From NCBI GenBank assembly GCA_030430385.1, contig JAUIFO010000001.1, positions 372,001-436,000 of the forward strand: a DNA stretch of 64,000 bases, given 5' to 3'. The notes under the pieces were generated by a model that saw only the letters and a list, made by a program, of their open reading frames with translations, had not been told where the DNA came from and did not search any database. Of the stretch, positions 1-63,414 are shown piece after piece (the stretch's first letter is position 1; each line of letters opens with the position of its first letter). The position numbers and the translations under genes are program-made. Source of the DNA: Bacteroidia bacterium (lineage in GTDB: Bacteria > Bacteroidota > Bacteroidia > Flavobacteriales > Flavobacteriaceae).

Positions 1-1
1 C

Positions 2-3000
2 GAGTGTGGTATTAATGGAGAAGTACAAGGCGTGTTGAGCGGAGAGTACACTTCATGTGGAGGATTGTTATTTGTAGATTGGACTTATATCGATGAGTGT
101 GGACGTACCATTACAGCAAGAAAGCAAGTAAAGGTAGCACCAGCACCAGCACCAACAGTAGATGACGTAGAGGATTTTACTTTGTCATGTTCAGATGCAG
201 ATAGCTATCAAGCAGATGGATTAGGATATTCAAACGGATTAGAAGGTACTTGTAACATATCAGGGACTTTAGATCCAGTACAAACTAATAACTTTGATGA
301 GTGTGGAGGAACAATCACTGTGACTTGGAATGGCGAAGATGTATGTGGTAATGTATTAAGTGCATCACAGACAATTACAGTAGATCCAGCACCAATGGCA
401 GAGTTTATCAATCCATTACCAAGTATTGATGTAACATGTGATTTAGCAGATGATTACATTGTAACAGACTTAGCGTATTCAAATGGCTTAGACGGTACAT
501 GTGGAATCAATGGTTCAGTACCAGGAAGCTTATCAGGAGAATATGATGCCTGTGGCGGAACGTTATATGTAGACTGGAAGTTTGTAGATGATTGTGGACG
601 TGAGATAGAATACAGAAAAACAATCACAGTATTACCAGCACCAGCACCAGAGGTAATTGCACCAGAGTTTTCAGATAAGATAGCTTGTGCAGATGCAGCA
701 GGATTTGAAGCAGGTAATGCAACTTATAGTAATGACTTATCAGGATTATGTGAGTTATCAGGCGAGATCGAAGCAGATGTTGTAAAACAATACACAGCAT
801 GTGGCGGCTTGATTACAATCACATATACAGGTATGGATGCATGTGAGAACCCACTAAGTGCAGGACCATTCTACATAGAAGTAGATCCAGCACCAGAAGC
901 GGTAGTAGATGCACCAGAGTTTCCAGAGAGTATTGCATGTGCAGATGCAGACGCATTTGCAGCAGGTAATGCAACATACAGCAATGGATTAGAAGGAACA
1001 GACTGTGAGATCTCAGGCGAGATTGAAGCAGATGTTGTTAAAGAATACACAGCATGTGGAGGTGTTATCACAGTTTCTTACACAGGTAAGGATATTTGTG
1101 ATAGAGACTTATCAGCAGGACCATACTATATAGAAGTAGATCCAGCACCAGCACCAACTGTAAGTGCACCAGAATTCCCAAGTGAAATTATGTGTGCAAT
1201 GGCAGCCGGGTTTGAAGCAGACAATGCAACTTACACAAATGGCTTAACAGGTGACTGTGAGATTTCAGGAGAGTTAGAAGCAGAGGTTGTAAAAGAATAC
1301 AACGCTTGTGGTGGAACGATCACGATTTCTTACTACGGTTATGATGTATGTCAGAACCCACTAAGTGCAGGACCATTTACAGTAACAGTAATGCCAGCAC
1401 CAGAGGCAGATGTAACAGCACCAGAGTTCCCATCGAACATTGCATGTGCAGACGCAGCTGGATTTGAAGCAGGTAATGCAACATACAGTAATGGTTTAGA
1501 ACAAACAGCATGTGAGATTTCAGGCGAGATCGAAGCAGATGTTGTTAAAGAATACGATGCATGTGGCGGAACGATTACGATCACTTACACAGGTAAAGAT
1601 ATTTGTGATAGAGACTTATCAGCAGGACCATATGTAATCACAGTAGATCCAGCACCAGAGGCAGATGTAATGGCACCTCAGTTCCCTGAGAAGATTGCAT
1701 GTGCAGACGCAGCCGGATTTGAAGCAGGTAATGCAACATATAGCAACGGATTGGAAGAGACAGCATGTGAGATTTCAGGTGAGATCGAAGCAGACGTTGT
1801 TAAAGAATACGATGCATGTGGCGGAACGATTACAATCACTTACACAGGTAAAGATGCATGTGATAGAGATTTATCAGCAGGACCATACGTAATAGAAGTA
1901 GATCCAGCACCAGCACCAACTGTAAGCGCACCAGAATTCCCAAGTGAGATTATGTGTGCAATGGCAGCCGGATTTGAAGCAGCTAATGCGACTTACACTA
2001 ATGGCTTAACAGGTGACTGTGAGATCTCAGGTGAGTTAGAAGCAAATGTTGTAAAAGATTACACAGCTTGTGGAGGAACGATCACTATTTCTTACGAAGG
2101 TATAGATGCATGTGATAATCCACTAGCGGCTGGACCATATACAGTTAATGTAATGCCAGCACCAGAAGCAGATGTAACGGCACCTCAGTTCCCTGAGAAG
2201 ATTGCATGTGCAGATGCAGCTGGATTTGAAGCAGGTAATGCTACTTACAGCAATGGATTAGAAGGAACAGACTGTGAGATCTCAGGCGAGATTGAAGCAG
2301 ATGTTGTTAAAGAATACACAGCATGTGGAGGTGTTATCACAGTTTCTTACACAGGTAAGGATATTTGTGATAGAGACTTATCAGCAGGACCATACTATAT
2401 AGAAGTAGATCCAGCACCAGCACCAACTGTAAGTGCACCAGAATTCCCAAGTGAAATTATGTGTGCAATGGCAGCCGGGTTTGAAGCAGACAATGCAACT
2501 TACACAAATGGCTTAACAGGTGACTGTGAGATTTCAGGAGAGTTAGAAGCAGAGGTTGTAAAAGAATACAACGCTTGTGGTGGAACGATCACGATTTCTT
2601 ACTACGGTTATGATGTATGTCAGAACCCACTAAGTGCAGGACCATTTACAGTAACAGTAATGCCAGCACCAGAGGCAGATGTAACAGCACCAGAGTTCCC
2701 ATCGAACATTGCATGTGCAGACGCAGCTGGATTTGAAGCAGGTAATGCAACATACAGTAATGGCTTAGAACAAACAGCATGTGAGATTTCAGGCGAGATC
2801 GAAGCAGATGTTGTTAAAGATTACGATGCATGTGGCGGAACGATTACGATCACTTACACAGGTAAAGATATTTGTGATAGAGACTTATCAGCAGGACCAT
2901 ATGTAATTGCAGTAGATCCAGCACCAGAGGCAGATGTAATGGCACCTCAGTTCCCTGAGAAGATTGCATGTGTTGATGCAGAAGGATTTGAAGCAGGTAA

Positions 3001-4215
3001 TGCAACATACAGTAATGGATTAGAAGAGACAGCATGTGAGATTTCAGGTGAGATCGAAGCAGATGTTGTTAAAGATTACGATGTATGTGGCGGAACGATT
3101 ACAATCACTTACACAGGTAAAGATGCATGTGATAGAGACTTATCGGCAGGACCATATGTAATAGAAGTAGATCCAGCACCAGCACCATATTTCAATGAGA
3201 TTGATGATGCTAGTATAGCATGTGAGGACTTAGCGACTTACGTACCAGAGTACTTAAGCTATACAAATGGAATTGATGGACCATGTGGTATTAATGGAGA
3301 GGTTCAAGGTGTAGCACAACCATTCGATGGAAGCTGTGGAACCTTTGAAGTAGACTTCTCGTATGAGTCATGTGGCGTTACAATTACAGCGAAGCAAGTA
3401 ATTACTGTAATCGATGAGACAGCACCAGTATTGGTAGGCGAGTTACCACAAGGTATCTCAGATGTCAATGGATGTTTATCAGATGCACCAGCAGCTCCAA
3501 CAGAGGAGGAGATTGAGGCATTATTCAGTGATAACTGTGGCAATGTTAATGCAACTTTAGAGGTTGTATCACCAGAGCAAAATACAGATTGTTTATGGGC
3601 CGTATTATACAGATACACGATCCAGGATGACTGTGGTAATTTTGCAGCACCAGTTAAGATTTACCATAATGGTGGTGATATGACAGCACCAGAATTGGTA
3701 GGTGAGTTACCAGAAGGCGTAACAGGTTTACAGTGTAAGGATGAGAATCCAGGCGCACCAGACTTGTCAGCGATCCAGGCAGCTTACACAGATAACTGTG
3801 GTGATGTTATAATCACACCATTTGAGCCAGTAATGGCAGGAGATGATTGTGAGTGGTCATTCACGTATGAGTACGAGATTAAGGATTCATGTGGTAACAA
3901 GTTACCAAACTTAGTGATCGTAAACAGTGGAGCAGATACAATGCCACCAGTGTTAGAAGGAGAGATTCCAATGGGAATGAACTCAGTGAATGCTTGTATA
4001 GATTCAGACTTAGGAGAACCAACAGAGGAAGAGATCGCAGCATTGTTCTCTGATAACTGTGCGGAGATCACAGCTGATAATGTATATAAGATTGAGAAGC
4101 TAGCAATTGGAGACGATTGTGAGTGGATAAGAGTATTTGAATACACAGTATCAGATGACTGTGATAATACATATCCAACATTTAAGATCAATTACCAAGG
4201 TGGTGATACTGAAGA
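2..4215 (+). repeat. Long direct repeat, copy 1 (partner 8503-12716)
   Basis: The two stretches align without any insertion or deletion at offset 8,501, with only a few differences per 60 bases in the lines I compared by eye. The repeat begins before the window edge and ends sharply at the codons for GGDTE, after which the genes are unrelated for about 1 kb or more. Confidence 0.85.
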
Positions 4216-5431
4216 CCCAACATTTGAAGTATTCCCAGATGATATCACTATTGAGTGTTCTGAAATTGAAAACTTAGAATTGTTCAGTATCCTTTCATAT
4301 CTTGATGATAACCAGGTACCATTCCCAGTACCAGCAGATAACTGTTCTGTAACGTTAGATTGGGAAGCAGATGTAGTTGCTGGCCCTCAAGAATGTCCTA
4401 CAATAGCTGTATGTACTAAGAAGTTCATTGCTACTGATGGATGTGGAAATTCAACTGAAAGAACATTAACTGTAACCATTGTTGATACAGAAGGACCAGT
4501 TATAGATTGTCCAGAAGATGAAGACTTTGGTCTTGTTGATGAAGCGCCAACTGATTTTGCTGATAAAGCAACTTGGGTAGATTGTCAAGGTTCAGGAGAA
4601 ACGGCTGACTTTACTGATAGTGAATTAGAAGTATCTCAAGGTCAACAAACTCAAGTAGGATCTGAATTAAGATTCATGTTCTATGAAGGTTATATTTTAA
4701 CGTTTGGTGATGCACCTGCAGGAACTGTAAATGATGCACCATATTACACTGGTATTGTAACAGATCTTAATGGTAATCATTTACCAGCTTATGGATCTTT
4801 TGAATTGATTTTCTATTTTAATAACCAATTCCCTGATTTCAGTGTTGTTCAAAATGGAGAAGAAGTAGGATATGGAGCTCCAGATAATAATGGTAACCCA
4901 TCTTGTGATAGTTTAGATTGGTATTTTGAAGCTGATGGTCATAACAAAGACTTCTATATGGAATGCGCTCAGTTTGAGTACACAACTGAATACTCATTCA
5001 CTCGTACGTTCACTGCTTATGATGCTTGTGGAAATATTGGAGAATGTTCAGTAACTTACACTTGGAATATTGCTGAAATCCTTTACAGAGATGATATGAC
5101 AGTAAGTGATTCTATCGAGTTCAATCCAACTAATAGAGGACAAGAGTCTGAAGTTAGCGAAGAAGAGAAAATCGATTTCAAAGCGTACCCAGTACCATTT
5201 GATAACGAAGTGACTATTTCATACGAGTTTGATTACAGAACAGATGTAACAATAGAGTTATTTGATACTAAAGGCTTATTAGTGTCTAGCGTAACAAATA
5301 ATAGATATGTTGCAGGTTCATCAGATTCTACGAAGTTAGACTTAACTAAAACGCCAAGTCAAGTACTTTACGTGAAGTTAACAACTAACAAAGGAACAGT
5401 TACTAAGAAGATTGTATCTTCAGGTAGATAG
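2..5431 (+). CDS. Giant T9SS-secreted cysteine-rich repeat protein, 5' end outside window
   Basis: The frame is open from the first bases, so the true start lies upstream; the first in-window ATG (position 32) is inside a repeat. The visible part holds most of one and then 13 complete class-B repeats of about 84 residues. Each has the pattern Cys - YSNGL - C.ISG - D.CGG - D.C - SAGP - PAP, with four cysteines. Three class-A repeats (SDNCG, GDDC.W, GGD) follow, then a unique tail and a type A T9SS sorting domain (FKAYPVPFDNEVTI to the end). Family knowledge: such domains direct export across the outer membrane and surface attachment. Role as an adhesin or surface fibre is inference. The downstream gene is a close paralogue; up to base 4215 both align without gaps at an offset of 8,501. 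The repeats prefer GAG, AAG and TTA codons, while the tail uses more GAA and CTT. Confidence 0.9.
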   Translation, partial: ECGINGEVQGVLSGEYTSCGGLLFVDWTYIDECGRTITARKQVKVAPAPAPTVDDVEDFTLSCSDADSYQADGLGYSNGLEGTCNISGTLDPVQTNNFDECGGTITVTWNGEDVCGNVLSASQTITVDPAPMAEFINPLPSIDVTCDLADDYIVTDLAYSNGLDGTCGINGSVPGSLSGEYDACGGTLYVDWKFVDDCGREIEYRKTITVLPAPAPEVIAPEFSDKIACADAAGFEAGNATYSNDLSGLCELSGEIEADVVKQYTACGGLITITYTGMDACENPLSAGPFYIEVDPAPEAVVDAPEFPESIACADADAFAAGNATYSNGLEGTDCEISGEIEADVVKEYTACGGVITVSYTGKDICDRDLSAGPYYIEVDPAPAPTVSAPEFPSEIMCAMAAGFEADNATYTNGLTGDCEISGELEAEVVKEYNACGGTITISYYGYDVCQNPLSAGPFTVTVMPAPEADVTAPEFPSNIACADAAGFEAGNATYSNGLEQTACEISGEIEADVVKEYDACGGTITITYTGKDICDRDLSAGPYVITVDPAPEADVMAPQFPEKIACADAAGFEAGNATYSNGLEETACEISGEIEADVVKEYDACGGTITITYTGKDACDRDLSAGPYVIEVDPAPAPTVSAPEFPSEIMCAMAAGFEAANATYTNGLTGDCEISGELEANVVKDYTACGGTITISYEGIDACDNPLAAGPYTVNVMPAPEADVTAPQFPEKIACADAAGFEAGNATYSNGLEGTDCEISGEIEADVVKEYTACGGVITVSYTGKDICDRDLSAGPYYIEVDPAPAPTVSAPEFPSEIMCAMAAGFEADNATYTNGLTGDCEISGELEAEVVKEYNACGGTITISYYGYDVCQNPLSAGPFTVTVMPAPEADVTAPEFPSNIACADAAGFEAGNATYSNGLEQTACEISGEIEADVVKDYDACGGTITITYTGKDICDRDLSAGPYVIAVDPAPEADVMAPQFPEKIACVDAEGFEAGNATYSNGLEETACEISGEIEADVVKDYDVCGGTITITYTGKDACDRDLSAGPYVIEVDPAPAPYFNEIDDASIACEDLATYVPEYLSYTNGIDGPCGINGEVQGVAQPFDGSCGTFEVDFSYESCGVTITAKQVITVIDETAPVLVGELPQGISDVNGCLSDAPAAPTEEEIEALFSDNCGNVNATLEVVSPEQNTDCLWAVLYRYTIQDDCGNFAAPVKIYHNGGDMTAPELVGELPEGVTGLQCKDENPGAPDLSAIQAAYTDNCGDVIITPFEPVMAGDDCEWSFTYEYEIKDSCGNKLPNLVIVNSGADTMPPVLEGEIPMGMNSVNACIDSDLGEPTEEEIAALFSDNCAEITADNVYKIEKLAIGDDCEWIRVFEYTVSDDCDNTYPTFKINYQGGDTEDPTFEVFPDDITIECSEIENLELFSILSYLDDNQVPFPVPADNCSVTLDWEADVVAGPQECPTIAVCTKKFIATDGCGNSTERTLTVTIVDTEGPVIDCPEDEDFGLVDEAPTDFADKATWVDCQGSGETADFTDSELEVSQGQQTQVGSELRFMFYEGYILTFGDAPAGTVNDAPYYTGIVTDLNGNHLPAYGSFELIFYFNNQFPDFSVVQNGEEVGYGAPDNNGNPSCDSLDWYFEADGHNKDFYMECAQFEYTTEYSFTRTFTAYDACGNIGECSVTYTWNIAEILYRDDMTVSDSIEFNPTNRGQESEVSEEEKIDFKAYPVPFDNEVTISYEFDYRTDVTIELFDTKGLLVSSVTNNRYVAGSSDSTKLDLTKTPSQVLYVKLTTNKGTVTKKIVSSGR
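899..3187 (+). repeat. 1,269-bp higher-order tandem repeat in the first giant gene
   Basis: Five class-B units (899-2167) are followed by four more units of the same series (2168-3187) at a constant offset of 1,269 bp, that is 423 codons. The copies are nearly identical at DNA level; both encode, for example, VSYTGKD and GYDVCQNPLSAGP. These variants are absent at the matching places of the second giant gene. Confidence 0.85.
4216..5170 (+). other. Variable C-terminal cassette of the first giant gene
   Basis: This region differs from the second giant gene apart from a short shared HYR-like frame (DEAPTDFADKA before, TRTFTA-DACGN after). Within that frame, about 4613-4993 encode an inserted domain I do not recognise, rich in aromatic residues (YYTG, FELIFYF, LDWYF). 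Codon choice is closer to ordinary genes of this window than to the repeats. Confidence 0.7.
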
Positions 5432-5502
5432 TTTGATAAATAATTAGGGAAAATTCCCTAAGGGTAAATACAAAAGGCAGCTAGTAATAGCTGCCTTTTT
5501 TT
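5432..5502 (+). repeat. 3' flank shared with the second giant gene
   Basis: The bases after the stop codon match 14554-14624 almost perfectly: a short AT stretch, a perfect 18-base palindrome at 5444-5461 (TTAGGGAAAATTCCCTAA), then a terminator hairpin. Identity continues from the sorting-domain codons (from 5171, partner 14293) and stops in the T-run. Confidence 0.85.
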
Positions 5503-5512
5503 TTTTTTTTTT
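5472..5512 (+). terminator. Rho-independent terminator with 17-T tract
   Basis: Stem GGCAGCTA / TAGCTGCC with loop GTAA is followed by 17 consecutive T residues. It closes the first giant gene. The partner after the second giant gene has the same stem but only 7 T. Confidence 0.9.
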
Positions 5513-5994
5513 AATCATTATTTATCAATAAGATAAGGCGTTATTTTTTGTTACATAGCTAAGAAATAATTATTGTTTTCTTCGTTTCATCGAAGATTTT
5601 CGCATTGAAAATGAGCTACTTTCCGATTAACTGCATAAAAAAGTTGCTCAACTGTTCAATATTCGAAAAATTCTAAATATAATTTGGGAATCAACATTTT
5701 ATCTTCTACTTTTGATGATAAGCGAATTTATACTTTTAAATTCTCTGTGTCATAATTTTGAAGTCTGAAAAGATTACATATTATGATTCTCTTCAAAAGA
5801 TTGTTTAATAGCATAGCAATTGATTATTAGCATTTTATTGATTTAGGAATAGTACATATTCTGATTTTTTAGGTTGTATTGATTACGATACAATTTGAAG
5901 GTATTTAGAATATACTAAAAGGATAATAGCGGTGCATTATTATGTATTGTTATTTAATAAATGTTAAGATAATTTTAATTTAAAACCAAATGTT
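5513..5994 (+). other. AT-rich intergenic leader region before the second giant gene
   Basis: There is no convincing coding frame here. The region contains a good promoter match at 5683-5714. If that promoter is used, the second giant gene has an untranslated leader of about 270 bases. I saw no riboswitch class or further strong hairpin. Confidence 0.5.
5683..5714 (+). promoter_or_regulatory. Predicted Bacteroidota-type promoter for the second giant gene
   Basis: TTTG at 5683-5686, a 20-base spacer, and TACTTTTG at 5707-5714 fit the Bacteroidota consensus TTTG-N19-TAnnTTTG. It lies about 280 bases before the start codon; no better match was found closer to the gene. Confidence 0.5.
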
Positions 5995-8900
5995 ATGTTT
6001 ATGAGCAATTTTACCTTTAGTAGTAGTTTGAAGACTGTTACTAGCTTATTATGTTGTAGCATCGGCCTTACTAAACTACGTGGAAGCATTCAATCAGTGA
6101 TGGTTGTAATGCTTTTATTATTAGGAAGTGTTTCGATGTATGGGCAGGTATCGGAGCGTAGTACGTTTTTCGATCGTTGTTTGGAGGATGCCCCTCCAGG
6201 CCCAAGCGAGTTGGATGTAGCCAATCTGTATTTGAATCAGTGTGGCGATACACCAGCAGAAGTTACAAAGACACCAAATATCACAGGGAATGACTGTGAT
6301 TGGGAAGTCGAGTACACTTATTTTATTAAATGTGGGAACTTCGAAGAGGAGATCAAGATTGGTTATGTAGGCGGTGATCGTACACCACCATCGTTAAATG
6401 ATGGTGCACAAGTACCACAAGGCGGAAGTAACATCAATGCTTGTTTTTCAGAAGCACCTATGGGCCCAAGTGAAGCAGATATCGCAGAGTTATATTCAGA
6501 TAACTGTGGCGATGTTATAGTAACTAAGTCAGGGTCACCACAAGGAGACGACTGTTCATGGACAGCGTATTACAAGTATTCAATTCAGGATACCTGTGGT
6601 AATTTTGCAGCAGAGTTAGATGTAAATTATAGCGGCGGCGATAATGAAGCGCCACAATTAGTTAGTGAGCTACCAGAAGGTGGATCAGGATTAAACTTAT
6701 GTTACAATGACCGTCCATTAGGACCAAGCGAGTCAGATATTGCAGCGTTATATTCAGATAACTGTGGTAACGTAACAGTAGAGAAGACCGAAGAGACTAA
6801 AGGCAGCGATTGTAAGTGGTATGCTATCTATACGTATACGATAGTTGATGACTGTAACAATTATGCCAATCCAGTACAGGTAATTTATTCAGGCGGAGAT
6901 TCAGAGCCACCAGTATTAAATAATGTACCAAAAGATGCGTTTTATTCTTGTATAGATGAAGTACCATCACCAGCCCAAGTATCATATACCGATAACTGTG
7001 ATCAAACGATCAAGATCGAGTATGTAGAGGACTTAAGTGGTTTAGGAGATTACTGTACAGGCGGAAAGATTGTAAGAACATGGACCGCAACAGATCAGTG
7101 TAATAATAGCACATCTTTATCTCAGAACATTACCGTACAAGGCGCACCAGATTCAGAATTAACAGTGCCAGAGTTTCCAGATAGTTTATCATGTTCAGAG
7201 GCTTACAACTATGAGGTGTCAGATGCGACTTACTCTAATGGTGTAACTTCAGGCGCATGTGCAATATCAGGAAGCATTACAGCAACTGTAACTAATGATT
7301 TTGATGTATGTGGCGGAAAGATTGTAATTAGCTATACAGGTGAAGATGCCTGTGGTACTCCATTAAGTGCAGGACCATATGAGATCAATGTAGAAGCAGC
7401 ACCAGCGTCACAATTAGATCCAGTAGAGAACTTTACCTTATCATGTGCAGAGGCAGCAGCTTATGTAGCAGGACCATTAAACTATAACAATGGCGAAGAA
7501 GGTGATTGTAACTTAAGTGGATCAATAGAGCCAGTTCAAAAGAATGAGTTTGATGCCTGTGGTGGAAAGATCACTGTAACATGGGATGGCGAGGATGCTT
7601 GTGGTAATCCATTAAGTGCCTTAATAGATATAACCGTAGAAGCAGCACCAGCACCAGAGTTTGCACCAATCGAGATAGAGTCAAGTTTATCATGTGCAGA
7701 TGCAGCAGGTTATGTAGCTAGTGGATTAAATTATGATAACGGAGAAGAAGGTTTATGTAACATAAGTGGTATTATCGATCCACAGCAGTCAAATGATTTT
7801 GATGCATGTGGTGGAACGATTAACATCACTTGGTCAGGCGAGGATGTATGTGGTAACCCACTAAGTACATCAGCAACGATTCAAGTAGAACCAGCGCCAA
7901 TGGCAGAGGTTACTACACCAGAATTTCCAGAGAGCATTGCTTGTGCAGATGCAGGCGCATTTACAGCAGGAGATGCTACTTATACTAACGGTTTAACAGG
8001 AGACTGTGAGATCTCAGGAAGCTTAACAGCAAACGTAGAGAGTGAGTATGATGCCTGTGGCGGAAAGATCACAATAACATATAATGGTGAAGATGCTTGT
8101 GGACGTCCATTAAGCGCAGGACCATTTGATGTAGATGTAGATCCAGCACCAGAAGCTACTATTACAGTACCAGAATTCCCAGAGAGCATTGCATGTGCAA
8201 TGGCAGCCGGATTTGAAGCAGGAGATGCTACTTACACTAATGGTTTAACAGGAGACTGTGAGATCTCAGGAAGCTTAACAGCAAATGTAGAGAATGACTA
8301 TGATCTATGTGGCGGAAAGATCACAATTACTTATTATGGAGAAGATGCCTGTGGCCGTATATTAAGCGCAGGGCCATATGATGTAGATGTAAATCCAGCA
8401 CCAGAGGCTAGTTTTGCTCCAGCAGGACATGAAGATATTTCATGTGCAGATGCAGAGAACTACCAAGCAGGAACCTTAAGCTATTCAAATGGCTTAGATG
8501 GTGAGTGTGGTATCAATGGAGAAGTACAAGGCGAGTTGAGTGGAGAGTACACTTCATGTGGCGGATTGTTATTTGTAGATTGGACTTATACCGATGAGTG
8601 TGGACGTACCATTACAGCAAGAAAGCAAGTAAAGGTAGGACCAGCACCAGCACCAACAGTAAATGACGTAGAGGATTTTACTTTGTCATGTTCAGATGCA
8701 GATAGCTACCAAGCAGATGGATTAGGATATTCAAACGGATTAGAAGGTACTTGTAACATATCAGGGACTTTAGATCCAGTTCAAACGAATAACTTTGATG
8801 AGTGTGGAGGAACAATTACTGTGACTTGGAATGGAGAAGATGTATGTGGTAATGTATTAAGTGCATCACAGACAATTACAGTAGATCCAGCACCAATGGC

Positions 8901-11900
8901 AGAGTTTATCAATCCATTACCAAGTATTGATGTAACATGTGATTTAGCAGATGATTACATTGTAACAGACTTAGCGTATTCAAATGGCTTAGACGGTACA
9001 TGTGGAATCAATGGTTCAGTACCAGGAAGCTTATCAGGAGAATATGATGCCTGTGGCGGAACGTTATATGTAGACTGGAAGTTTGTAGATGATTGTGGAC
9101 GTGAGATAGAATACAGAAAAACAATCACAGTATTACCAGCACCAGCACCAGAGGTAATTGCACCAGAGTTTTCAGATAAGATAGCTTGTGCAGATGCAGC
9201 CGGATTTGAAGCAGGTAATGCGACTTATAGTAATGATTTATCAGGATTATGTGAGTTATCAGGCGAGATCGAAGCAGATGTTGTAAAACAATACACAGCA
9301 TGTGGTGGCTTGATTACAATCACATATACAGGTATGGATGCATGTGAGAACCCACTAAGTGCAGGACCATTCTACATAGAAGTAGATCCAGCACCAGAAG
9401 CGGTAGTAGATGCACCTCAGTTCCCTGAGAAGATAGCATGTGCAGATGCAGACGCATTTGCAGCAGGTAATGCAACTTACAGCAATGGTTTAGAAGGAAC
9501 AGACTGTGAGATTTCAGGAGAGATCGAAGCAGATGTTGTTAAAGAATACACAGCATGTGGAGGTGTTATCACAGTAACTTACACAAGTAAGGATATTTGT
9601 GATAGAGACTTATCAGCAGGACCATACTATATAGAAGTAGATCCAGCACCAGCGCCAACAGTAAGCGCACCAGAATTCCCAAGTGAGATCATGTGTGCAA
9701 TGGCAGCCGGATTTGAAGCAGACAATGCGACTTACACAAATGGCTTAACAGGCGACTGTGAGATTTCAGGAGAGTTAGAAGCAGAGGTTGTAAAAGAATA
9801 CAACGCTTGTGGTGGAACAATCACGATTTCTTACTATGGTTATGATGCATGTCAGAACCCACTAGCGGCTGGACCATTTACAGTAACAGTAATGCCAGCA
9901 CCAGAGGCAGATGTAACAGCACCAGAGTTCCCATCGAACATTGCATGTGCAGACGCAGCAGGATTTGAAGCAGGTAATGCAACTTACAGCAATGGCTTAG
10001 AACAAACAGCATGTGAGATTTCAGGCGAGATCGAAGCAGATGTTGTTAAAGATTACGATGCATGTGGTGGAACGATCACGATCACTTACACAGGTAAAGA
10101 TATTTGTGATAGAGACTTATCAGCAGGACCATATGTAATTGCAGTAGATCCAGCACCAGAGGCAGATGTAATGGCGCCTCAGTTCCCTGAGAAGATTGCA
10201 TGTGCAGACGCAGCAGGATTTGAAGCAGGTAATGCAACCTACAGCAACGGATTGGAAGAGACAGCATGTGAGATTTCAGGTGAGATCGAAGCAGATGTTG
10301 TTAAAGATTACGATGCATGTGGAGGAACTATTACAATCACTTACACAGGTAAGGATGCATGTGATAGAGACTTATCAGCAGGACCATACTATATAGAAGT
10401 AGATCCAGCACCAGCACCAACAGTGAGCGCACCAGAATTTCCAAGTGAGATCATGTGTGCAATGGCAGCCGGATTTGAAGCAGCTAATGCAACTTACACA
10501 AATGGATTAACAGGAGACTGTGAGATCTCAGGTGAGTTAGAAGCAAATGTTGTAAAAGATTACACAGCTTGTGGTGGAACGATCACGATTTCTTACGAAG
10601 GTATAGATGCATGTGATAATCCACTAGCGGCTGGGCCATATACAGTTAATGTAATGCCAGCACCAGAAGCAGATGTAACGGCACCTCAGTTCCCTGAGAA
10701 GATAGCATGTGCAGACGCAGCTGGATTTGCAGCAGGTAATGCAACTTACAGCAATGGTTTAGAAGGAACAGACTGTGAGATTTCAGGAGAGATCGAAGCA
10801 GATGTTGTTAAAGAATACACAGCATGTGGAGGTGTTATCACAGTAACTTACACAAGTAAGGATATTTGTGATAGAGACTTATCAGCAGGACCATACTATA
10901 TAGAAGTAGATCCAGCACCAGCGCCAACAGTAAGCGCACCAGAATTCCCAAGTGAGATCATGTGTGCAATGGCAGCCGGATTTGAAGCAGACAATGCGAC
11001 TTACACAAATGGCTTAACAGGCGACTGTGAGATTTCAGGAGAGTTAGAAGCAGAGGTTGTAAAAGAATACAACGCTTGTGGTGGAACAATCACGATTTCT
11101 TACTATGGTTATGATGCATGTCAGAACCCACTAGCGGCTGGACCATTTACAGTAACAGTAATGCCAGCACCAGAGGCAGATGTAACAGCACCAGAGTTCC
11201 CATCGAACATTGCATGTGCAGACGCAGCAGGATTTGAAGCAGGTAATGCAACTTACAGCAATGGCTTAGAACAAACAGCATGTGAGATTTCAGGCGAGAT
11301 CGAAGCAGATGTTGTTAAAGAATACGATGCATGTGGTGGAACGATCACGATCACTTACACAGGTAAAGATATTTGTGATAGAGACTTATCAGCAGGACCA
11401 TATGTAATTGCAGTAGATCCAGCACCAGAGGCAGATGTAATGGCACCTCAGTTCCCTGAGAAGATTGCATGTGTTGATGCAGAAGGATTTGAAGCAGGTA
11501 ATGCAACTTACAGCAATGGATTAGAAGAGACAGCATGTGAGATTTCAGGTGAGATCGAAGCAGATGTTGTTAAAGATTACGATGTATGTGGAGGAACTAT
11601 TACAATCACTTACACAGGTAAGGATGCATGTGATAGAGACTTATCAGCAGGACCATACTATATAGAAGTAGATCCAGCACCAGCACCATATTTCAATGAG
11701 ATTGATGATGCTAGTATAGCATGTGAGGACTTAGCGACTTACGAGCCAGAGTACTTAAGTTATACAAATGGAATTGATGGACCATGTGGTATAAATGGAG
11801 AGGTTCAAGGTGTCGCACAACCATTCGATGGAAGCTGTGGAACCTTTGAAGTAGACTTCTCATATGAGTCATGTGGCGTTACAATTACAGCGAAGCAAGT

Positions 11901-14553
11901 AATTACTGTAATCGATGAGACAGCACCAGTATTGGTAGGGGAGTTACCACAAGGTATCTCAGATGTCAATGGATGTTTATCAGATGCACCAGCAGCTCCA
12001 ACAGAGGAGGAGATTGAGGCATTATTCAGTGATAACTGTGGAAATGTTAATGCAACTTTAGAGGTTATATCACCAGAGCAAAATACAGATTGTTTATGGG
12101 CCGTATTATACAGATACACGATCCAGGATGACTGTGGTAATTTTGCAGCACCAGTTAAGATTTACCATAATGGAGGTGATATGACAGCACCAGAATTGGT
12201 AGGAGAGTTACCAGAAGGCGTAACAGGTTTACAGTGTAAGGATGAGAATCCAGGAGCACCAGACTTGTCAGCGATCCAGGCAGCTTACACAGATAACTGT
12301 GGTGATGTTATAATCACACCATTTGAGCCAGTAATGGCAGGAGATGATTGTGAGTGGTCATTCACGTATGAGTACGAGATTAAGGATTCATGTGGTAACA
12401 AGTTACCAAACTTAGTGATCGTAAACAGTGGAGCAGATACAATGCCACCAGTGTTAGAAGGAGAGATTCCAATGGGAATGAACTCAGTGAATGCTTGTAT
12501 AGATTCAGATTTAGGAGAGCCAACAGAGGAAGAGATCGCAGCATTGTTCTCTGATAACTGTGCGGAGATCACAGCTGATAATGTATATAAGATCGAGAAG
12601 CTAGCAATTGGAGACGATTGTGAATGGATTAGAGTATTTGAATACACAGTATCAGATGACTGTGATAATACATATCCAACATTTAAGATCAATTACCAAG
12701 GTGGTGATACTGAAGCACCACAACAACAAAGTTGTGTGAATGAGGTAATGGTTCTTAATACAAATGAGATTGATGGATTGGCTTGTCCAAATGATGCAAT
12801 GATCTCACTTAACGATGGCGATGTAATTACAATCAATAGTGAGTGGACAGTAGCAGGAATTCCTGCAAGTCAAATAGGTTCAATGGAAACATGTTTCACT
12901 GATAACTGTACACCAGTAGATGAATTACAATTCAGAGTTATTGGAAAAGTAGAAGATAAGAAAGAGTGTACAACAACACTTTCAGTATCATTTGAAGTAG
13001 AAGACAACTGTGGTAACAAAACAGAAGAGCCATTTGTATGTACGTTTATCGTAAACGATACAACGGCTCCAGTATTGACTTGCCCAGAAGGTGAAGACTT
13101 CGGACTTGTAGATGAAGCACCAACTGATTTTGCTGATAAAGCATCATGGACAGATAACTGTCAAGGTGAGGGTGAAACAGCTGATTATACAGATGTGATT
13201 TCATCTAGTACTTCATCTGGAGGAGCTTATGTTAATAGATTATTAACTAGTGAAGCAGACTTCAGTGGAAGTGAGACTCTAATTGATTTTGATGATATTA
13301 CCAGAGTGAGTCCATCTGACAATTTTGATGGAAATTCTTATGCAGCTCAAGGTGTAACATTTAGTCATCCTACAGATAATTTAGGATTGTGGTTCGCACC
13401 AACTTACAGTGGTGAAAATTCACTATTTAATCATGATGATGCTTCTTCATTTGGAACAATAACTATTGATTTTGATCAGAAGCGTAACAGAGCTGGTTTC
13501 TATGCGACTTCAAATGCTAATTATGATGCTCAAATCGAGGTTATTTGTATGTCAGGTGGAACAGTATTAGCTACTGATGTTTATGATACAACAAACTCAG
13601 ATTGGATCTTCATTGGAATGGAAAGCGCAGGAGGATTTGACAGAATCGTTATTTCTGCAGTTCAAGTAGCAGGAGGATCATTCGCAGCTGTTGGTATTGA
13701 TGATCTTCGTTTTGAAGGTGATGGTTCAGGAGGATCTCTTGAAGAGTATACTCTAGTACGTACCTTTACTGCAGACGATGGATGTGGAAACATCGCTACT
13801 TGTGATGTAACATATACATGGTCTATTGGCTCACCAGATTCATCATCTTGTGGATATGATCTAATTAGTTGTGGTGATGTAGAAGCAGGTGATACTTCTG
13901 ATCAAGGTGTAGAAGATGTAGAGTTTGCTCTAGAAGGATTCAATTGGTTAGGAAATGTTTACACTTTTGTTGGAACAGGACAAGATGTAGCTACTTTCAG
14001 TACATGTGAAAATTCAAGTTACGATACTCGATTAGTTGTGTTTACAGGTTGTGAAGATAATCCTGTTGTTATTGGAGGTAATGATGATGCTTGTGGACTT
14101 CAATCTATTGTTGAATTCTTTGCAGAAGATGGTGTAGAATACAATATCTTCGTGACAGGGTTTGCGCCTTTAGGAGATAATTTTATTCCTGGCTTAGATA
14201 GTGGAGCTTATTCTCTCACAGTATCATGTGATCCAGCTCAGGCTAGACAGCAGTTACAAGCTCAACAGGAAACTAAATATGAAGATGAACCGATCAATTT
14301 CAAAGCGTACCCAGTACCATTTGATAATGAAGTGACTATTTCATACGAGTTTGATTACAGAACAGATGTAACAATAGAGTTATTTGATACTAAAGGCTTA
14401 TTAGTGTCTAGCGTAACAAATAATAGATATGTTGCAGGTTCATCAGATTCTACGAAGTTAGACTTAACTAAAACGCCAAGTCAGGTACTTTACGTGAAGT
14501 TAACAACTAACAAAGGAACAGTTACTAAGAAGATCGTATCTTCAGGTAGATAG
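5995..14553 (+). CDS. Giant T9SS-secreted cysteine-rich repeat protein, complete (2852 aa)
   Basis: Complete paralogue of the upstream gene. Residues 1-51 form an unusually long leader with its hydrophobic core at about 35-46 and a likely cleavage near SMYGQ. Then follow three class-A repeats (about 52-300), an HYR-like repeat (to 386), nineteen class-B four-cysteine repeats (387-1978) and three more class-A repeats (1979-2240). The variable tail (2241-2766) holds an HYR-like module with a beta-rich inserted domain (about 2402-2584), and a segment resembling a bacterial pre-peptidase C-terminal domain (about 2614-2747). The type A T9SS sorting domain (2767-2852) is identical in protein sequence to that of the neighbour. 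The regular cysteines suggest disulfide-stabilised units outside the cytoplasm (inference). Ligand and function are unknown. The start is the first ATG of the frame; another ATG lies two codons later. Confidence 0.92.
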   Translation: MFMSNFTFSSSLKTVTSLLCCSIGLTKLRGSIQSVMVVMLLLLGSVSMYGQVSERSTFFDRCLEDAPPGPSELDVANLYLNQCGDTPAEVTKTPNITGNDCDWEVEYTYFIKCGNFEEEIKIGYVGGDRTPPSLNDGAQVPQGGSNINACFSEAPMGPSEADIAELYSDNCGDVIVTKSGSPQGDDCSWTAYYKYSIQDTCGNFAAELDVNYSGGDNEAPQLVSELPEGGSGLNLCYNDRPLGPSESDIAALYSDNCGNVTVEKTEETKGSDCKWYAIYTYTIVDDCNNYANPVQVIYSGGDSEPPVLNNVPKDAFYSCIDEVPSPAQVSYTDNCDQTIKIEYVEDLSGLGDYCTGGKIVRTWTATDQCNNSTSLSQNITVQGAPDSELTVPEFPDSLSCSEAYNYEVSDATYSNGVTSGACAISGSITATVTNDFDVCGGKIVISYTGEDACGTPLSAGPYEINVEAAPASQLDPVENFTLSCAEAAAYVAGPLNYNNGEEGDCNLSGSIEPVQKNEFDACGGKITVTWDGEDACGNPLSALIDITVEAAPAPEFAPIEIESSLSCADAAGYVASGLNYDNGEEGLCNISGIIDPQQSNDFDACGGTINITWSGEDVCGNPLSTSATIQVEPAPMAEVTTPEFPESIACADAGAFTAGDATYTNGLTGDCEISGSLTANVESEYDACGGKITITYNGEDACGRPLSAGPFDVDVDPAPEATITVPEFPESIACAMAAGFEAGDATYTNGLTGDCEISGSLTANVENDYDLCGGKITITYYGEDACGRILSAGPYDVDVNPAPEASFAPAGHEDISCADAENYQAGTLSYSNGLDGECGINGEVQGELSGEYTSCGGLLFVDWTYTDECGRTITARKQVKVGPAPAPTVNDVEDFTLSCSDADSYQADGLGYSNGLEGTCNISGTLDPVQTNNFDECGGTITVTWNGEDVCGNVLSASQTITVDPAPMAEFINPLPSIDVTCDLADDYIVTDLAYSNGLDGTCGINGSVPGSLSGEYDACGGTLYVDWKFVDDCGREIEYRKTITVLPAPAPEVIAPEFSDKIACADAAGFEAGNATYSNDLSGLCELSGEIEADVVKQYTACGGLITITYTGMDACENPLSAGPFYIEVDPAPEAVVDAPQFPEKIACADADAFAAGNATYSNGLEGTDCEISGEIEADVVKEYTACGGVITVTYTSKDICDRDLSAGPYYIEVDPAPAPTVSAPEFPSEIMCAMAAGFEADNATYTNGLTGDCEISGELEAEVVKEYNACGGTITISYYGYDACQNPLAAGPFTVTVMPAPEADVTAPEFPSNIACADAAGFEAGNATYSNGLEQTACEISGEIEADVVKDYDACGGTITITYTGKDICDRDLSAGPYVIAVDPAPEADVMAPQFPEKIACADAAGFEAGNATYSNGLEETACEISGEIEADVVKDYDACGGTITITYTGKDACDRDLSAGPYYIEVDPAPAPTVSAPEFPSEIMCAMAAGFEAANATYTNGLTGDCEISGELEANVVKDYTACGGTITISYEGIDACDNPLAAGPYTVNVMPAPEADVTAPQFPEKIACADAAGFAAGNATYSNGLEGTDCEISGEIEADVVKEYTACGGVITVTYTSKDICDRDLSAGPYYIEVDPAPAPTVSAPEFPSEIMCAMAAGFEADNATYTNGLTGDCEISGELEAEVVKEYNACGGTITISYYGYDACQNPLAAGPFTVTVMPAPEADVTAPEFPSNIACADAAGFEAGNATYSNGLEQTACEISGEIEADVVKEYDACGGTITITYTGKDICDRDLSAGPYVIAVDPAPEADVMAPQFPEKIACVDAEGFEAGNATYSNGLEETACEISGEIEADVVKDYDVCGGTITITYTGKDACDRDLSAGPYYIEVDPAPAPYFNEIDDASIACEDLATYEPEYLSYTNGIDGPCGINGEVQGVAQPFDGSCGTFEVDFSYESCGVTITAKQVITVIDETAPVLVGELPQGISDVNGCLSDAPAAPTEEEIEALFSDNCGNVNATLEVISPEQNTDCLWAVLYRYTIQDDCGNFAAPVKIYHNGGDMTAPELVGELPEGVTGLQCKDENPGAPDLSAIQAAYTDNCGDVIITPFEPVMAGDDCEWSFTYEYEIKDSCGNKLPNLVIVNSGADTMPPVLEGEIPMGMNSVNACIDSDLGEPTEEEIAALFSDNCAEITADNVYKIEKLAIGDDCEWIRVFEYTVSDDCDNTYPTFKINYQGGDTEAPQQQSCVNEVMVLNTNEIDGLACPNDAMISLNDGDVITINSEWTVAGIPASQIGSMETCFTDNCTPVDELQFRVIGKVEDKKECTTTLSVSFEVEDNCGNKTEEPFVCTFIVNDTTAPVLTCPEGEDFGLVDEAPTDFADKASWTDNCQGEGETADYTDVISSSTSSGGAYVNRLLTSEADFSGSETLIDFDDITRVSPSDNFDGNSYAAQGVTFSHPTDNLGLWFAPTYSGENSLFNHDDASSFGTITIDFDQKRNRAGFYATSNANYDAQIEVICMSGGTVLATDVYDTTNSDWIFIGMESAGGFDRIVISAVQVAGGSFAAVGIDDLRFEGDGSGGSLEEYTLVRTFTADDGCGNIATCDVTYTWSIGSPDSSSCGYDLISCGDVEAGDTSDQGVEDVEFALEGFNWLGNVYTFVGTGQDVATFSTCENSSYDTRLVVFTGCEDNPVVIGGNDDACGLQSIVEFFAEDGVEYNIFVTGFAPLGDNFIPGLDSGAYSLTVSCDPAQARQQLQAQQETKYEDEPINFKAYPVPFDNEVTISYEFDYRTDVTIELFDTKGLLVSSVTNNRYVAGSSDSTKLDLTKTPSQVLYVKLTTNKGTVTKKIVSSGR
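7153..11928 (+). repeat. Array of 19 in-frame class-B repeats
   Basis: Nineteen units of about 84 codons (mean near 251 bp) run without interruption. Early units (1-8) are diverged; units 10-18 are almost interchangeable, which points to recent expansion. Every unit codes for four cysteines, and all except the last end in a PAP or PAPAP linker (APA in the first). Confidence 0.9.
8503..12716 (+). repeat. Long direct repeat, copy 2 (partner 2-4215)
   Basis: This is the second copy of the collinear block at offset 8,501. Direct repeats of over 4 kb in tandem are strong substrates for homologous recombination and also a place where assemblies may collapse. Confidence 0.85.
9400..11688 (+). repeat. 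1,269-bp higher-order tandem repeat in the second giant gene
   Basis: Copy 1 (five units, 9400-10668) and copy 2 (four units, 10669-11688) are again offset by 1,269 bp. Both copies code for VTYTSKD and GYDACQNPLAAGP, which differ from the pair in the first gene, so copies within a gene resemble each other more than their positional partners. Confidence 0.85.
12717..14292 (+). other. Variable C-terminal cassette of the second giant gene
   Basis: The tail is 621 bp longer than that of the first gene. It includes an HYR-like module split by an inserted domain (about 13197-13747, with LIDFDD and GIDDLRFEG near its ends, a layout seen in carbohydrate-binding-like beta sandwiches). A segment with YDTRLVVFTGC resembles a PPC domain. 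Assignments rest on pattern recognition only. Confidence 0.65.
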
Positions 14554-14624
14554 TTTGATAAATAATTAGGGAAAATTCCCTAAGGGTAAATACAAAAGGC
14601 AGCTAGTAATAGCTGCCTTTTTTT
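14554..14624 (+). repeat. 3' flank shared with the first giant gene
   Basis: Same palindrome and terminator stem as 5432-5502. The downstream sequences then diverge completely. Confidence 0.85.
14594..14624 (+). terminator. Rho-independent terminator of the second giant gene
   Basis: Stem GGCAGCTA / TAGCTGCC at 14598-14617 is followed by seven T. Confidence 0.88.
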
Positions 14625-56044: not shown

Positions 56045-58375
56045 TTAACGTTTCAAAGAGAAGTGCCCAGAAAAGGTTCTACCATCTATCAAAGTCGCTA
56101 CAAACCAGTAGTCATCACTAGGAAGGTCTTGTCCGTTTAAGGAACCATCCCAACCAGGACTCGTATGATTGAGTTGTTTTAGAAGTTTCCCATAACGATT
56201 AAAGATTTTAATATCTATTCCAATATTGGTATCTCTATTAACAGCATAAGCATGCCAAGTATCGTTATAGGTGTCGCCATTTGGTGTGAAGAACTTTGGA
56301 AACCCTAATACTGAAATATCTTCTTGAATGATGCCACATCCATTACGATCTATCACAAATACAGTATGGAATCCTGGTGGTACATTTGTAAAAGTCGGAT
56401 TCTCTTGGAACAAATCGCCTAATACATCAATACTGTACTCGTAAGTGCCTTCACCTGAAACTTCTATAGTAATGGTGTTATTACTTGAACCTTCATCAAT
56501 AATGATGTTTTCAATAGTTGCAATATTTGAAGGGTTTACTGTTATAATTCTGCTTGATGAGCAGCCATTTGGATGTGTAACAACAACAGTGTAATCACCA
56601 ATTGCATTGACGTCATAAGTACTCGTAAAAACACCTGTACTTACACCTTCAAAGAACCATTCATATGAATAATTAATACTACTATCTCCAGTAATACCAG
56701 CTTCAAGTGTAATCGTATCTGGAAAAGAATTTATACAATAGATAACAGATTCATTTTCAATCAAGGTAGGAGTAATGAGGACTTCCAAGTCTGCTGGACT
56801 AATTGAAAAGCACTGATTATTACTTTCAACTTTTACAAAAATAGTTTGATTAAATGGTATACTATTTTCGTATTGCACAGGAAGTTCGTTTGTACTCTGA
56901 AAGGCATCTATTTCAGTTTCATAAAAATTAACTAAAGCATTTGCAGGTATTTGAGTCTCTATAGCTGCTGTAATTTGAGATAAATCAAAAGTTGTAAATC
57001 CGTCAATAACATCACCTTCACAGCCTTTAATTGTTGGTATATTTAAGATATTGTTAGAAATTTGAAGTTCAATTGCTGATACATCAAAGCATCGTGCCTG
57101 ATTTTCAACTCTGGCATAAACCGTTTGAGATGGAAATGAATTTTCAAAAATATTAGCACCAACTATGGCATTGGTATTTTGAATAGCCTCTGCTTCCGAA
57201 AGGAAAAAATCTGAAACAATCAGTGAACTATCATTGTTCGTGACATCGCTTTCAGCATTGTATAAATTATATAAGGTTATGCCATCTTGATCTTGATCAC
57301 ATTCTACCAATATCGTATCAAACGCTACTGGATTTTCAGAATATTCAATAACAATTTCACCATAGGAAATGCAATTATTGTCTAAGGTAACTTCAACATT
57401 ATAAGTTCCTGCTTCAGTGACTGTGTAGGTGCTATTAAGTTCAGTTAGAAGTTCTACATCATCTTTAAACCATTTAAAACTATTACTGTTTTGTTGCGAT
57501 GCATCTAAGACAAGTGTGTCATTTTCGCAAATGGCATTACCTGTTGATAATAAGCGATTTGGACCAAGATCTGTAGATAGTTGAAAGCTACCAGCTTCAA
57601 GAAATACAGCCGAATCATATCTAAAGTTTTGCTCGTCGGCAATTACTAACTTCACATGATAGGTTTCATCAGGAACTACATTGGCTGTTGCTGTTAAAAT
57701 TTTAGTTTGGCCATTAAAATTAATAGGCACATTAGTACCATTCCAGCTATCAAAATAAAATTCGTTAATTGGCTCACAAGCGTTTGGGATCCCAGAATGT
57801 ACTGTAGTCACTTTTACAGGTGTCTGTGTATTAGGAACTAGTGCAATGTTCGTGTATTGTTGTTCATCTATTGGGCGAATCAAAAAACCGAATAGATCTG
57901 AGAACTGACAAGTATTTGCGTTACCTTCTTGGTATTCTTCTGAAGCAAATAAGTATCTGAAGCTAATTTGTGAGGCAATGCTGGTAAAATCGAATTCAAT
58001 AATCGTGGCATTAAGCGTATTGGTTTCATTAAGTGCTGTTTCTAGGTCTAGATCACCAGTCCAACCAGGAGCATCATCATCGCTTAAGGTTGAGTTTGGT
58101 CCAGGAACATTACTTAAACGTCCAGTACTGAGTACAATACCACTTTGAAAAGGGAAAGTCGTTCCGCTAGCATCAAAGTAACCATAGCTTTGATCGGAGC
58201 CATTAAAATTTCCACCAACCACGTTTGTCACTGAAACATTCTCAATACAATCACTATCAATTAAAACATCTTCAATAAGCTCTTGTGCAGAATAGGTTTG
58301 GCTATCTACTTGTATGCCTTGCGCACCAATAGATAAACCAACAAACAAATACACAAGTGTGATGAGGTTTTTCAT
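56045..58375 (-). CDS. T9SS type B secreted protein with choice-of-anchor L domain (776 aa)
   Basis: Signal peptide (MKNLITLVYLFVGLSIGAQG), then a choice-of-anchor L domain (about 20-265, with FPFQSGIVLSTG and FRYLFASEEYQEG). One Ig-like domain (about 270-345) and two Asp-containing repeats of about 90 residues (CDQDQDGITLYNL; CEGDVIDGFTTFDL) follow, then another Ig-like domain and a SprB-like repeat. The end (FFTPNGDTYNDTWH to FSLKR) is the gliding-motility type B sorting domain. This indicates T9SS export to the cell surface. The ATG was taken; a TTG two codons earlier is also in frame. First of three tandem paralogues. Confidence 0.9.
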   Translation of the reverse strand: MKNLITLVYLFVGLSIGAQGIQVDSQTYSAQELIEDVLIDSDCIENVSVTNVVGGNFNGSDQSYGYFDASGTTFPFQSGIVLSTGRLSNVPGPNSTLSDDDAPGWTGDLDLETALNETNTLNATIIEFDFTSIASQISFRYLFASEEYQEGNANTCQFSDLFGFLIRPIDEQQYTNIALVPNTQTPVKVTTVHSGIPNACEPINEFYFDSWNGTNVPINFNGQTKILTATANVVPDETYHVKLVIADEQNFRYDSAVFLEAGSFQLSTDLGPNRLLSTGNAICENDTLVLDASQQNSNSFKWFKDDVELLTELNSTYTVTEAGTYNVEVTLDNNCISYGEIVIEYSENPVAFDTILVECDQDQDGITLYNLYNAESDVTNNDSSLIVSDFFLSEAEAIQNTNAIVGANIFENSFPSQTVYARVENQARCFDVSAIELQISNNILNIPTIKGCEGDVIDGFTTFDLSQITAAIETQIPANALVNFYETEIDAFQSTNELPVQYENSIPFNQTIFVKVESNNQCFSISPADLEVLITPTLIENESVIYCINSFPDTITLEAGITGDSSINYSYEWFFEGVSTGVFTSTYDVNAIGDYTVVVTHPNGCSSSRIITVNPSNIATIENIIIDEGSSNNTITIEVSGEGTYEYSIDVLGDLFQENPTFTNVPPGFHTVFVIDRNGCGIIQEDISVLGFPKFFTPNGDTYNDTWHAYAVNRDTNIGIDIKIFNRYGKLLKQLNHTSPGWDGSLNGQDLPSDDYWFVATLIDGRTFSGHFSLKR

Positions 58376-58392
58376 ATACAATTTTTCCTTTG

Positions 58393-63298: not shown

Positions 63299-63414
63299 AT
63301 ATAGCAATTTTATAGCTACAAGTTCGCGTTCAATGGAATAACGAATTTGTAATCAATTAAAGTACTAAAAATTAATGAGATATGCTAATTGCGTATTCGT
63401 ATTTGTTGATCGTT

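Follow-up and report, generated by a model that had tools for sequence, protein, structure and literature searches.

Large surface adhesins exported by the type IX secretion system (T9SS), such as SprB and RemA of Flavobacterium johnsoniae, are well known in the Flavobacteriaceae, and silent-cassette antigenic variation, e.g., of msp2/p44 in Anaplasma, moves a variable block lying between conserved flanks by recombination. The pair of genes analyzed here can be likened to SprB and RemA by description alone, as large T9SS surface adhesins, and it shares the block-and-flank plan of msp2/p44, although silent donor copies were not found in its genome. The closest mechanism is offered by RTX adhesins, e.g., AhLap of Aeromonas hydrophila, which carry, close to their C-terminal secretion signal, ligand-binding domains that grow out of Ig-like split domains (PMC12077191, as far as the available portion of that paper describes these adhesins); both they and the proteins described below are giant and fibrous, and one insert found here resembles a solved carbohydrate binding module and split domain of Aeromonas salmonicida. 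On the one hand, RTX adhesins depend on type I secretion and carry RTX extender domains. On the other hand, the present proteins are T9SS cargo with HYR-like domains, are encoded by a tandem pair that appears to evolve in concert, and have relatives with empty sockets. The closest T9SS precedent is the group formed by Kgp, RgpA, and HagA of Porphyromonas gingivalis: the terminal adhesin of Kgp, next to a conserved C-terminal domain, may be K3, K4, or D1, with no correspondence to strain phylogeny, and there too repeats are common to several genes (PMC5266723, available portion). These proteins differ in being joined to proteinases or built of cleaved adhesin domains, and the same portion describes no split HYR socket (PMC5266723). 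The present pair thus combines features of RTX split-domain adhesins and of Kgp, and adds a tandem arrangement with homogenized stalks as well as empty sockets. In one open-licence library, no paper joining “type IX secretion” and “split domain” was found, and no title on a HYR-socket family appeared among the matches listed for HYR domains, Psychroserpens adhesins, or T9SS mosaics. The reading favored here, with a probability of roughly 0.65, is that of two split-domain T9SS adhesins on a homogenized stalk with replaceable heads.

The window, i.e., the whole stretch of 64,000 nucleotides that was analyzed, comes from a genome designated G000, whose host genus we infer to be Psychroserpens in the GTDB sense. 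It holds a tandem pair of giant genes, A (2,645 aa) and B (2,852 aa), between hutH, whose family assignment was confirmed, and a Clp ATPase gene with Clp_N, AAA, and UVR domains, which scores above no NCBIfam cut-off and for which ClpC would be no more than a putative name. Gene A is cut by the window; the whole gene occupies G000:C3:369494-377431, and its start lies 2.5 kb 5′ of the window. In the following list of features, given in window positions, the socket is the putative split domain that surrounds each insert.

2..5431, plus strand: gene A, 3′ part (open reading frame listing and genome contig)
5995..14553, plus strand: gene B, 2,852 aa, T9SS type A cargo with HYR_4C repeats (open reading frame listing, Pfam, NCBIfam)
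2..4213, plus strand: common trunk of A, part inside the window (4,074/4,212 identical to 8503-12714)
5995..12714, plus strand: common trunk of B, 2,240 codons (6,501/6,720 identical to gene A)
635..3182, plus strand: tandem array in gene A, ten 255-bp units
9136..11683, plus strand: tandem array in gene B, ten 255-bp units
4214..4498, plus strand: HYR-like domain 5′ of the socket of gene A (best match only 30.5 bits among the relatives’ proteins searched)
12715..13071, plus strand: module 5′ of the socket of gene B (matches adjoin the trunk in many relatives, among the best 22)
4499..4621, plus strand: socket domain of A, left half (sequence comparison and socket scan)
4622..4987, plus strand: insert of A, type 1, 122 aa, predicted beta barrel (comparison, socket scan, model)
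4988..5071, plus strand: socket domain of A, right half (sequence comparison and socket scan)
13072..13197, plus strand: socket domain of B, left half (sequence comparison and socket scan)
13198..13740, plus strand: insert of B, type 2, 181 aa, predicted carbohydrate-binding-module-like jelly roll (comparison, socket scan, model)
13741..13827, plus strand: socket domain of B, right half (sequence comparison and socket scan)
13843..14235, plus strand: extra module of B (a single or repeated unit in several relatives)
5168..5428, plus strand: T9SS type A sorting domain of A (NCBIfam, comparison)
14290..14550, plus strand: T9SS type A sorting domain of B (NCBIfam, alignment with gene A)
5444..5461, no strand: 18-bp perfect palindrome 3′ of gene A
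14566..14583, no strand: 18-bp perfect palindrome 3′ of gene B, the same as after A
5473..5498, plus strand: terminator-like stem 3′ of A (read in the sequence)
14595..14620, plus strand: terminator-like stem 3′ of B (read in the sequence)
5586..5630, plus strand: remnant of the hutH 3′ end between the copies, duplication joint (42/45 bases as in hutH, counted by eye)

Both proteins end in a T9SS sorting domain of type A (TIGR04183; 24.1 and 24.7 bits against a curated cut-off of 23). A genome-wide search with the same model gave 30.6 bits to each of A and B, which are among the 85 of 86 listed type A matches above the cut-off, and the genome encodes the SprA translocon (2,203 bits, over cut-off). 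Pfam, which likewise recovers the T9SS sorting domain, recognizes HYR_4C (PF23237, cut-off 27) in seven stretches of B (83.4 bits) and in four stretches of the window part of A (39.2 bits); a Pfam search of the same two sequences for RTX families up to E 1 returned none. At the N-terminus, a long leader with a hydrophobic stretch precedes the motif MYGQ. This unusually long leader (5995-6180), which starts with MFMSNFT, is present in most relatives read, is absent from the open reading frame of genome G011 as listed, and has no second match in the genome up to E 10; it presumably resembles an extended signal peptide. A second tandem pair of T9SS cargo genes lies elsewhere in the window on the minus strand (56045-58381 and 58460-63307), each combining choice-of-anchor L with a sorting domain of type B.

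The mosaic structure of genes A and B had been recognized in a sequence-only reading of this DNA, which described an identical trunk, heads that differ almost completely over 955 versus 1,576 bp, and an identical tail. The gapless 4.2-kb alignment of the trunks at offset 8,501 was borne out (reported E = 0), but strict identity was not, since the trunks are 96.7% alike. Taken over both whole genes, the trunk extends for 2,240 codons without a gap, plus ~0.2 kb upstream, and two blocks of ~150 bp upstream of A and B are 64-69% alike (gaps counted) vs. 97% for the trunk. The 3′ ends realign at 5168/14290 with the offset of 9,122 already given in that reading, and remain together to 5505/14627 (330 of 338 bases identical), so that this common 338-bp end comprises, as claimed, the sorting domain, palindrome, and terminator stem, and with them the stop codon. 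Both seams are sharp: 60/60 bases are identical before the left one and 20/60 after it, 22/60 before the right one and 55/60 after it. The parts between them (4214-5167 in A, 954 bp; 12715-14289 in B, 1,575 bp) are indeed unlike, except that they contain two homologous islands, 81% alike over 135 columns and 77% over 35. Judged from the sequences, these islands are the two halves of one HYR-like domain that flank unlike inserts.

That the duplication could be an assembly artefact or a collapsed repeat is scarcely conceivable, even though G000 is a draft of 29 contigs and many draft relatives break inside the gene: 219 of the 6,720 trunk bases, scattered over the length of the gene, distinguish A from B, and the same layout is found in genome G007, which is a single contig. 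Perfect copies of TTAGGGAANNTTCCCTAA in the genome are confined to the two gene ends, with one further site at two mismatches, and the palindrome is kept beside the terminator, with changed spacing or sequence, in most of the Psychroserpens rows printed and in Arcticiflavibacter. Site-specific recombination at this palindrome was considered and rejected, as it lies outside the seams and the seven neighboring proteins scanned with Pfam include no recombinase family.

Structure prediction was applied to each socket with its insert. The model of socket A, built from 14 sequences, has a mean pLDDT of 85.7 and is nearly all beta; it gave weak matches, which over the two halves together (range 1..191) are mostly to Ig and cadherin domains and over ~55..159 to small beta barrels, all at Z < 6 (best match Z 5.8, 67 residues, rmsd 2.5). 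Foldseek found no match to this model at E ≤0.001 (best E 0.08, with poor TM-scores), and a sequence search of the PDB with the socket A profile found none up to E 1. For insert A, the weak matches suggest a small beta barrel. The socket B model, built from two sequences, is poorer (mean pLDDT 62.9), with a left half below 50 and a right half at ~45-59 by block, and block means rise to 77-87 over residues 131-200 of the insert. At E ≤0.001, Foldseek returned 30 matches for this model, whose TM-scores by query length reached no more than 0.35 among the matches listed. In the structural comparison of insert B, the first row is an A. salmonicida protein described as “putative carbohydrate binding module and split domain” (Z 11.1, 142 residues, rmsd 3.2), tied within 1 with the next, CBM29 (Z 10.5, 126 residues, rmsd 3.0); CBM22 modules are also alike, and the fold resembles the K2 domain of Kgp (Z 8.8, 138 residues, rmsd 3.5). 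Insert B is therefore modeled, at low confidence, as a carbohydrate-binding jelly roll, a fold that does not by itself show a function. None of the four head segments has a Pfam match up to E 1, and, in contrast to Kgp and HagA, this includes the cleaved adhesin domain.

In all ten genomes first laid out (G000 and nine others), hutH precedes the gene or the pair, and in nine of the ten the Clp ATPase gene follows 3′ on the same stretch, both neighbors being recognized outside G000 by likeness to its own genes; in the exception, G004, copy B is cut off by the end of its contig, and a different contig (C60) opens with a gene end followed by the Clp gene. The first 302 residues, used as a query, match in 22 of 23 genomes and do so over nearly their full length in 20, with two such matches each in G000, G004, and G007 and one each in the other 17; matches are partial only in G006, where the contig ends at the gene, and in G022, and there is none in G008. 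Copy numbers in drafts are lower bounds, because many of these assemblies break inside the gene. On the hutH tree, which has open forks, copy number requires one change, i.e., a single origin of two copies (19 of 23 genomes scored, G006, G012, G008, and G013 being left out).

A scan for paired socket halves in open reading frames of the genus (≥180 aa) and in 18 loci from outside it revealed 38 sockets, 29 in the former and nine in eight of the latter, the other ten loci giving none. The two socket models were each built from nine hand-picked halves; score floors applied, as did a gap limit of 330 aa, and the scan may have overlooked further sockets. Thirty-five sockets are filled, their halves lying 105-187 aa apart, whereas three, in G002, G010, and Aquaticitalea, are empty, with halves 13-16 aa apart. 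At the level of sequence, the head contains a HYR-like domain interrupted by an insert, as expected of a split domain. Single linkage at E < 1e-3 sorts the 35 inserts into groups of 27, 3, and 2, plus three singletons, the group of three consisting of insert B and the inserts of G009 and G018. Relatives of insert A were found in 15 of the 23 genomes (G000 included), in one place each, and relatives of insert B in four, one of them a weak 52-residue match on another contig. Some relatives lack an insert, and others have one that is unrelated or very divergent. The fewest changes of type 1 subtype on the hutH tree number seven if “none” is counted as a state and three if the genomes concerned are left out (21 of 23 scored). 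A phage origin of the heads was rejected: tblastn with inserts A and B detected nothing in 50,697 phage records, and viral contigs scanned with the socket A alignment contained no relative.

Comparison of the locus in close relatives had been proposed in the sequence-only reading as a check on its mosaic, and two near sisters, G005 and G020 (HutH alike at 496 of 503 residues), do carry heads that differ inside a conserved trunk and sorting domain. A left arm of 3.4 kb that reaches into the insert is 91.4% alike between the two genes, and a right arm of 1.5 kb, which extends from the sorting domain across the intergenic region as far as the Clp gene and enters it, is 94.1% alike; between these arms, a core of 866 vs. 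413 bp has no blastn match among the matches listed. The right seam is sharp, whereas the left one is gradual, the likeness falling across the left half of the socket. Both inserts are of type 1 but belong to different subtypes, and G005 has an extra module of 155 aa that is 66% identical to a head module of Subsaxibacter and 48-59% identical to those of Hanstruepera and Mangrovimonas. The tree of type 1 inserts rejects both G005 + G020 (AU p 9e-4) and G000 + G004 + G006 + G007 + G012 (AU p 5.5e-15), two groups that the hutH tree supports and that were named after both trees had been seen. This incongruence could in part reflect old paralogues sorted by loss. Long branches were kept in the trees, namely G015 (N-terminus and trunk), G022 (tail), and G021 (type 1 inserts).

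The history of the trunks can be followed in the three genomes with two copies. A remnant of the hutH 3′ end lies between the copies in G000, G007, and G004, at nearly the same joint, and marks the joint of a tandem duplication. In the tree of non-coding flanks, the intergenic flank of G007 groups with that of G004 (100/99.9), and pairing the two flanks by genome is rejected (AU p 6.7e-5 for G007 and 3.4e-4 for G004), whereas the coding N-termini pair within each genome with full support. Since the intergenic flanks group across species, the duplication in G007 and G004 is older than the split of these species, and the coding parts compared have been homogenized since; in other words, their trunks have undergone concerted evolution after an old duplication. 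In G007, most of the length of the two copies (G007:C1:2193944-2211955; L032 and L033) is identical or near-identical, and they diverge in three respects: codons ~660-820, a difference in repeat number of ~334 codons, and the socket insert, which lies unlike between blocks of 3,539 bp at 98.6% and 1,029 bp at 100%. The tree does not pair the tails of the two G004 copies, the last of which is inferred from a separate contig.

Synonymous divergence between copies A and B amounts to 0.124 in G000 (2,240 codons), ~0 over most of G007, and 0.055 in G004 (first 640 codons), vs. N-terminal values between species of 0.51 (G007/G004) to ~1.4-2.5 (G000 vs. others, near saturation). Purifying selection alone, acting to keep trunk and tail alike, would agree with a trunk dN far below dS, but the synonymous sites are alike within genomes too, and this explanation can practically be set aside. 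Homogenization most likely proceeds by gene conversion.

The case of G000 is less direct. Its two flanks, upstream and intergenic, group together (100/100), so that the duplication here could be separate or renewed, although homogenized flanks would yield the same grouping. A recent duplication confined to this lineage, with one head later replaced by imported DNA and no lasting concerted evolution, would account for that grouping, for a hutH remnant still so close to hutH, and for the low trunk dS. We nevertheless regard it as rather unlikely, given that G007 and G004 have a hutH remnant at almost the same position, that the hutH tree gives two copies a single origin, and that the upstream blocks are so much less alike than the trunk. 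Homogenization of the G000 trunk is thus probable on the sequence comparisons, and the earlier claim that the two copies are recombination partners is upheld by the homogenized trunks of G007, G004, and probably G000, as well as by the change of head between the sister species G005 and G020.

According to the reading of two split-domain adhesins on a homogenized stalk, a tandem duplication at the hutH-Clp ATPase locus would have made two T9SS-exported adhesins, whose trunks would be kept alike within a genome by gene conversion or unequal crossing-over that leaves out the insert. The insert would act as a ligand-binding tip that, in the manner of RTX adhesins, projects from a split Ig-like domain, and the trunk, socket halves, and sorting domain would serve as homologous arms for the replacement of heads, new ones coming from the sister copy or from DNA of other strains. 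A cell would thereby display two specificities on one type of stalk. We give even odds to the broader proposal that the whole family is a plug-in platform, i.e., a syntenic T9SS locus whose HYR socket, at times empty, receives unrelated binding domains that move between species through homologous recombination via trunk, socket halves, and sorting domain, tandem copies remaining alike outside the plug and giving each cell two specificities.

The sequence-only reading had proposed antigenic or ligand-specificity variation. Ligand specificity fits the split-domain inserts, whereas the antigenic part is not borne out by the genome. Antigenic or phase variation, in which the two genes or further donors would often swap heads within a population, would be favored by the sharp seams, the near-identical arms, and the replacement of heads between sister species, as well as by the position of the type 1 insert, which is found in the first copy in G000, in the second in G007, and in the Clp-adjacent gene in G004, G006, and G012. 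Each insert, however, matches only itself in its own genome (E up to 0.001), and a socket-plus-insert profile detected no third socket in G000, its only other matches being two fragments of 19-21 residues (E 0.02 and 0.2). No silent donor set was therefore found, unrelated donors being beyond the reach of such searches. The neighboring proteins mentioned above lack a recombinase family, and both genes are open and have their own upstream DNA. Exchanging heads between two adjacent open genes would display nothing new. We consider such switching very unlikely; the evidence points to the display of two tips on a single type of stalk and to their replacement in the course of evolution. If this reading of two exchangeable tips is true, the split-domain rule for ligand-binding tips extends from type I (RTX) to type IX giant proteins of Bacteroidota, concerted evolution of the stalk is separated from turnover of the tip, and a natural series of stalks with different tips or none at one locus becomes usable for tip-binding tests.

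A contig scan with a query of trunk and head recovered no relative, whereas the sorting-domain alignment as a query gave 46 loci, of which 35 were used (L060-L094) and the 11 weakest omitted (L095-L105); these 35 supplied the 18 loci from outside the genus that entered the socket scan. In other genera, a recurring “WGW” module precedes the sorting domain (L082, L086, L088, and L090-L093), and the heads of L070 and L072 presumably resemble proprotein-convertase P domains. Two such sorting domains lie ~5-8 kb apart in G046:C2:1649396-1654947, G056:C2:537316-545482, and G136:C22:3932-10569, and these are possibly further tandem pairs.
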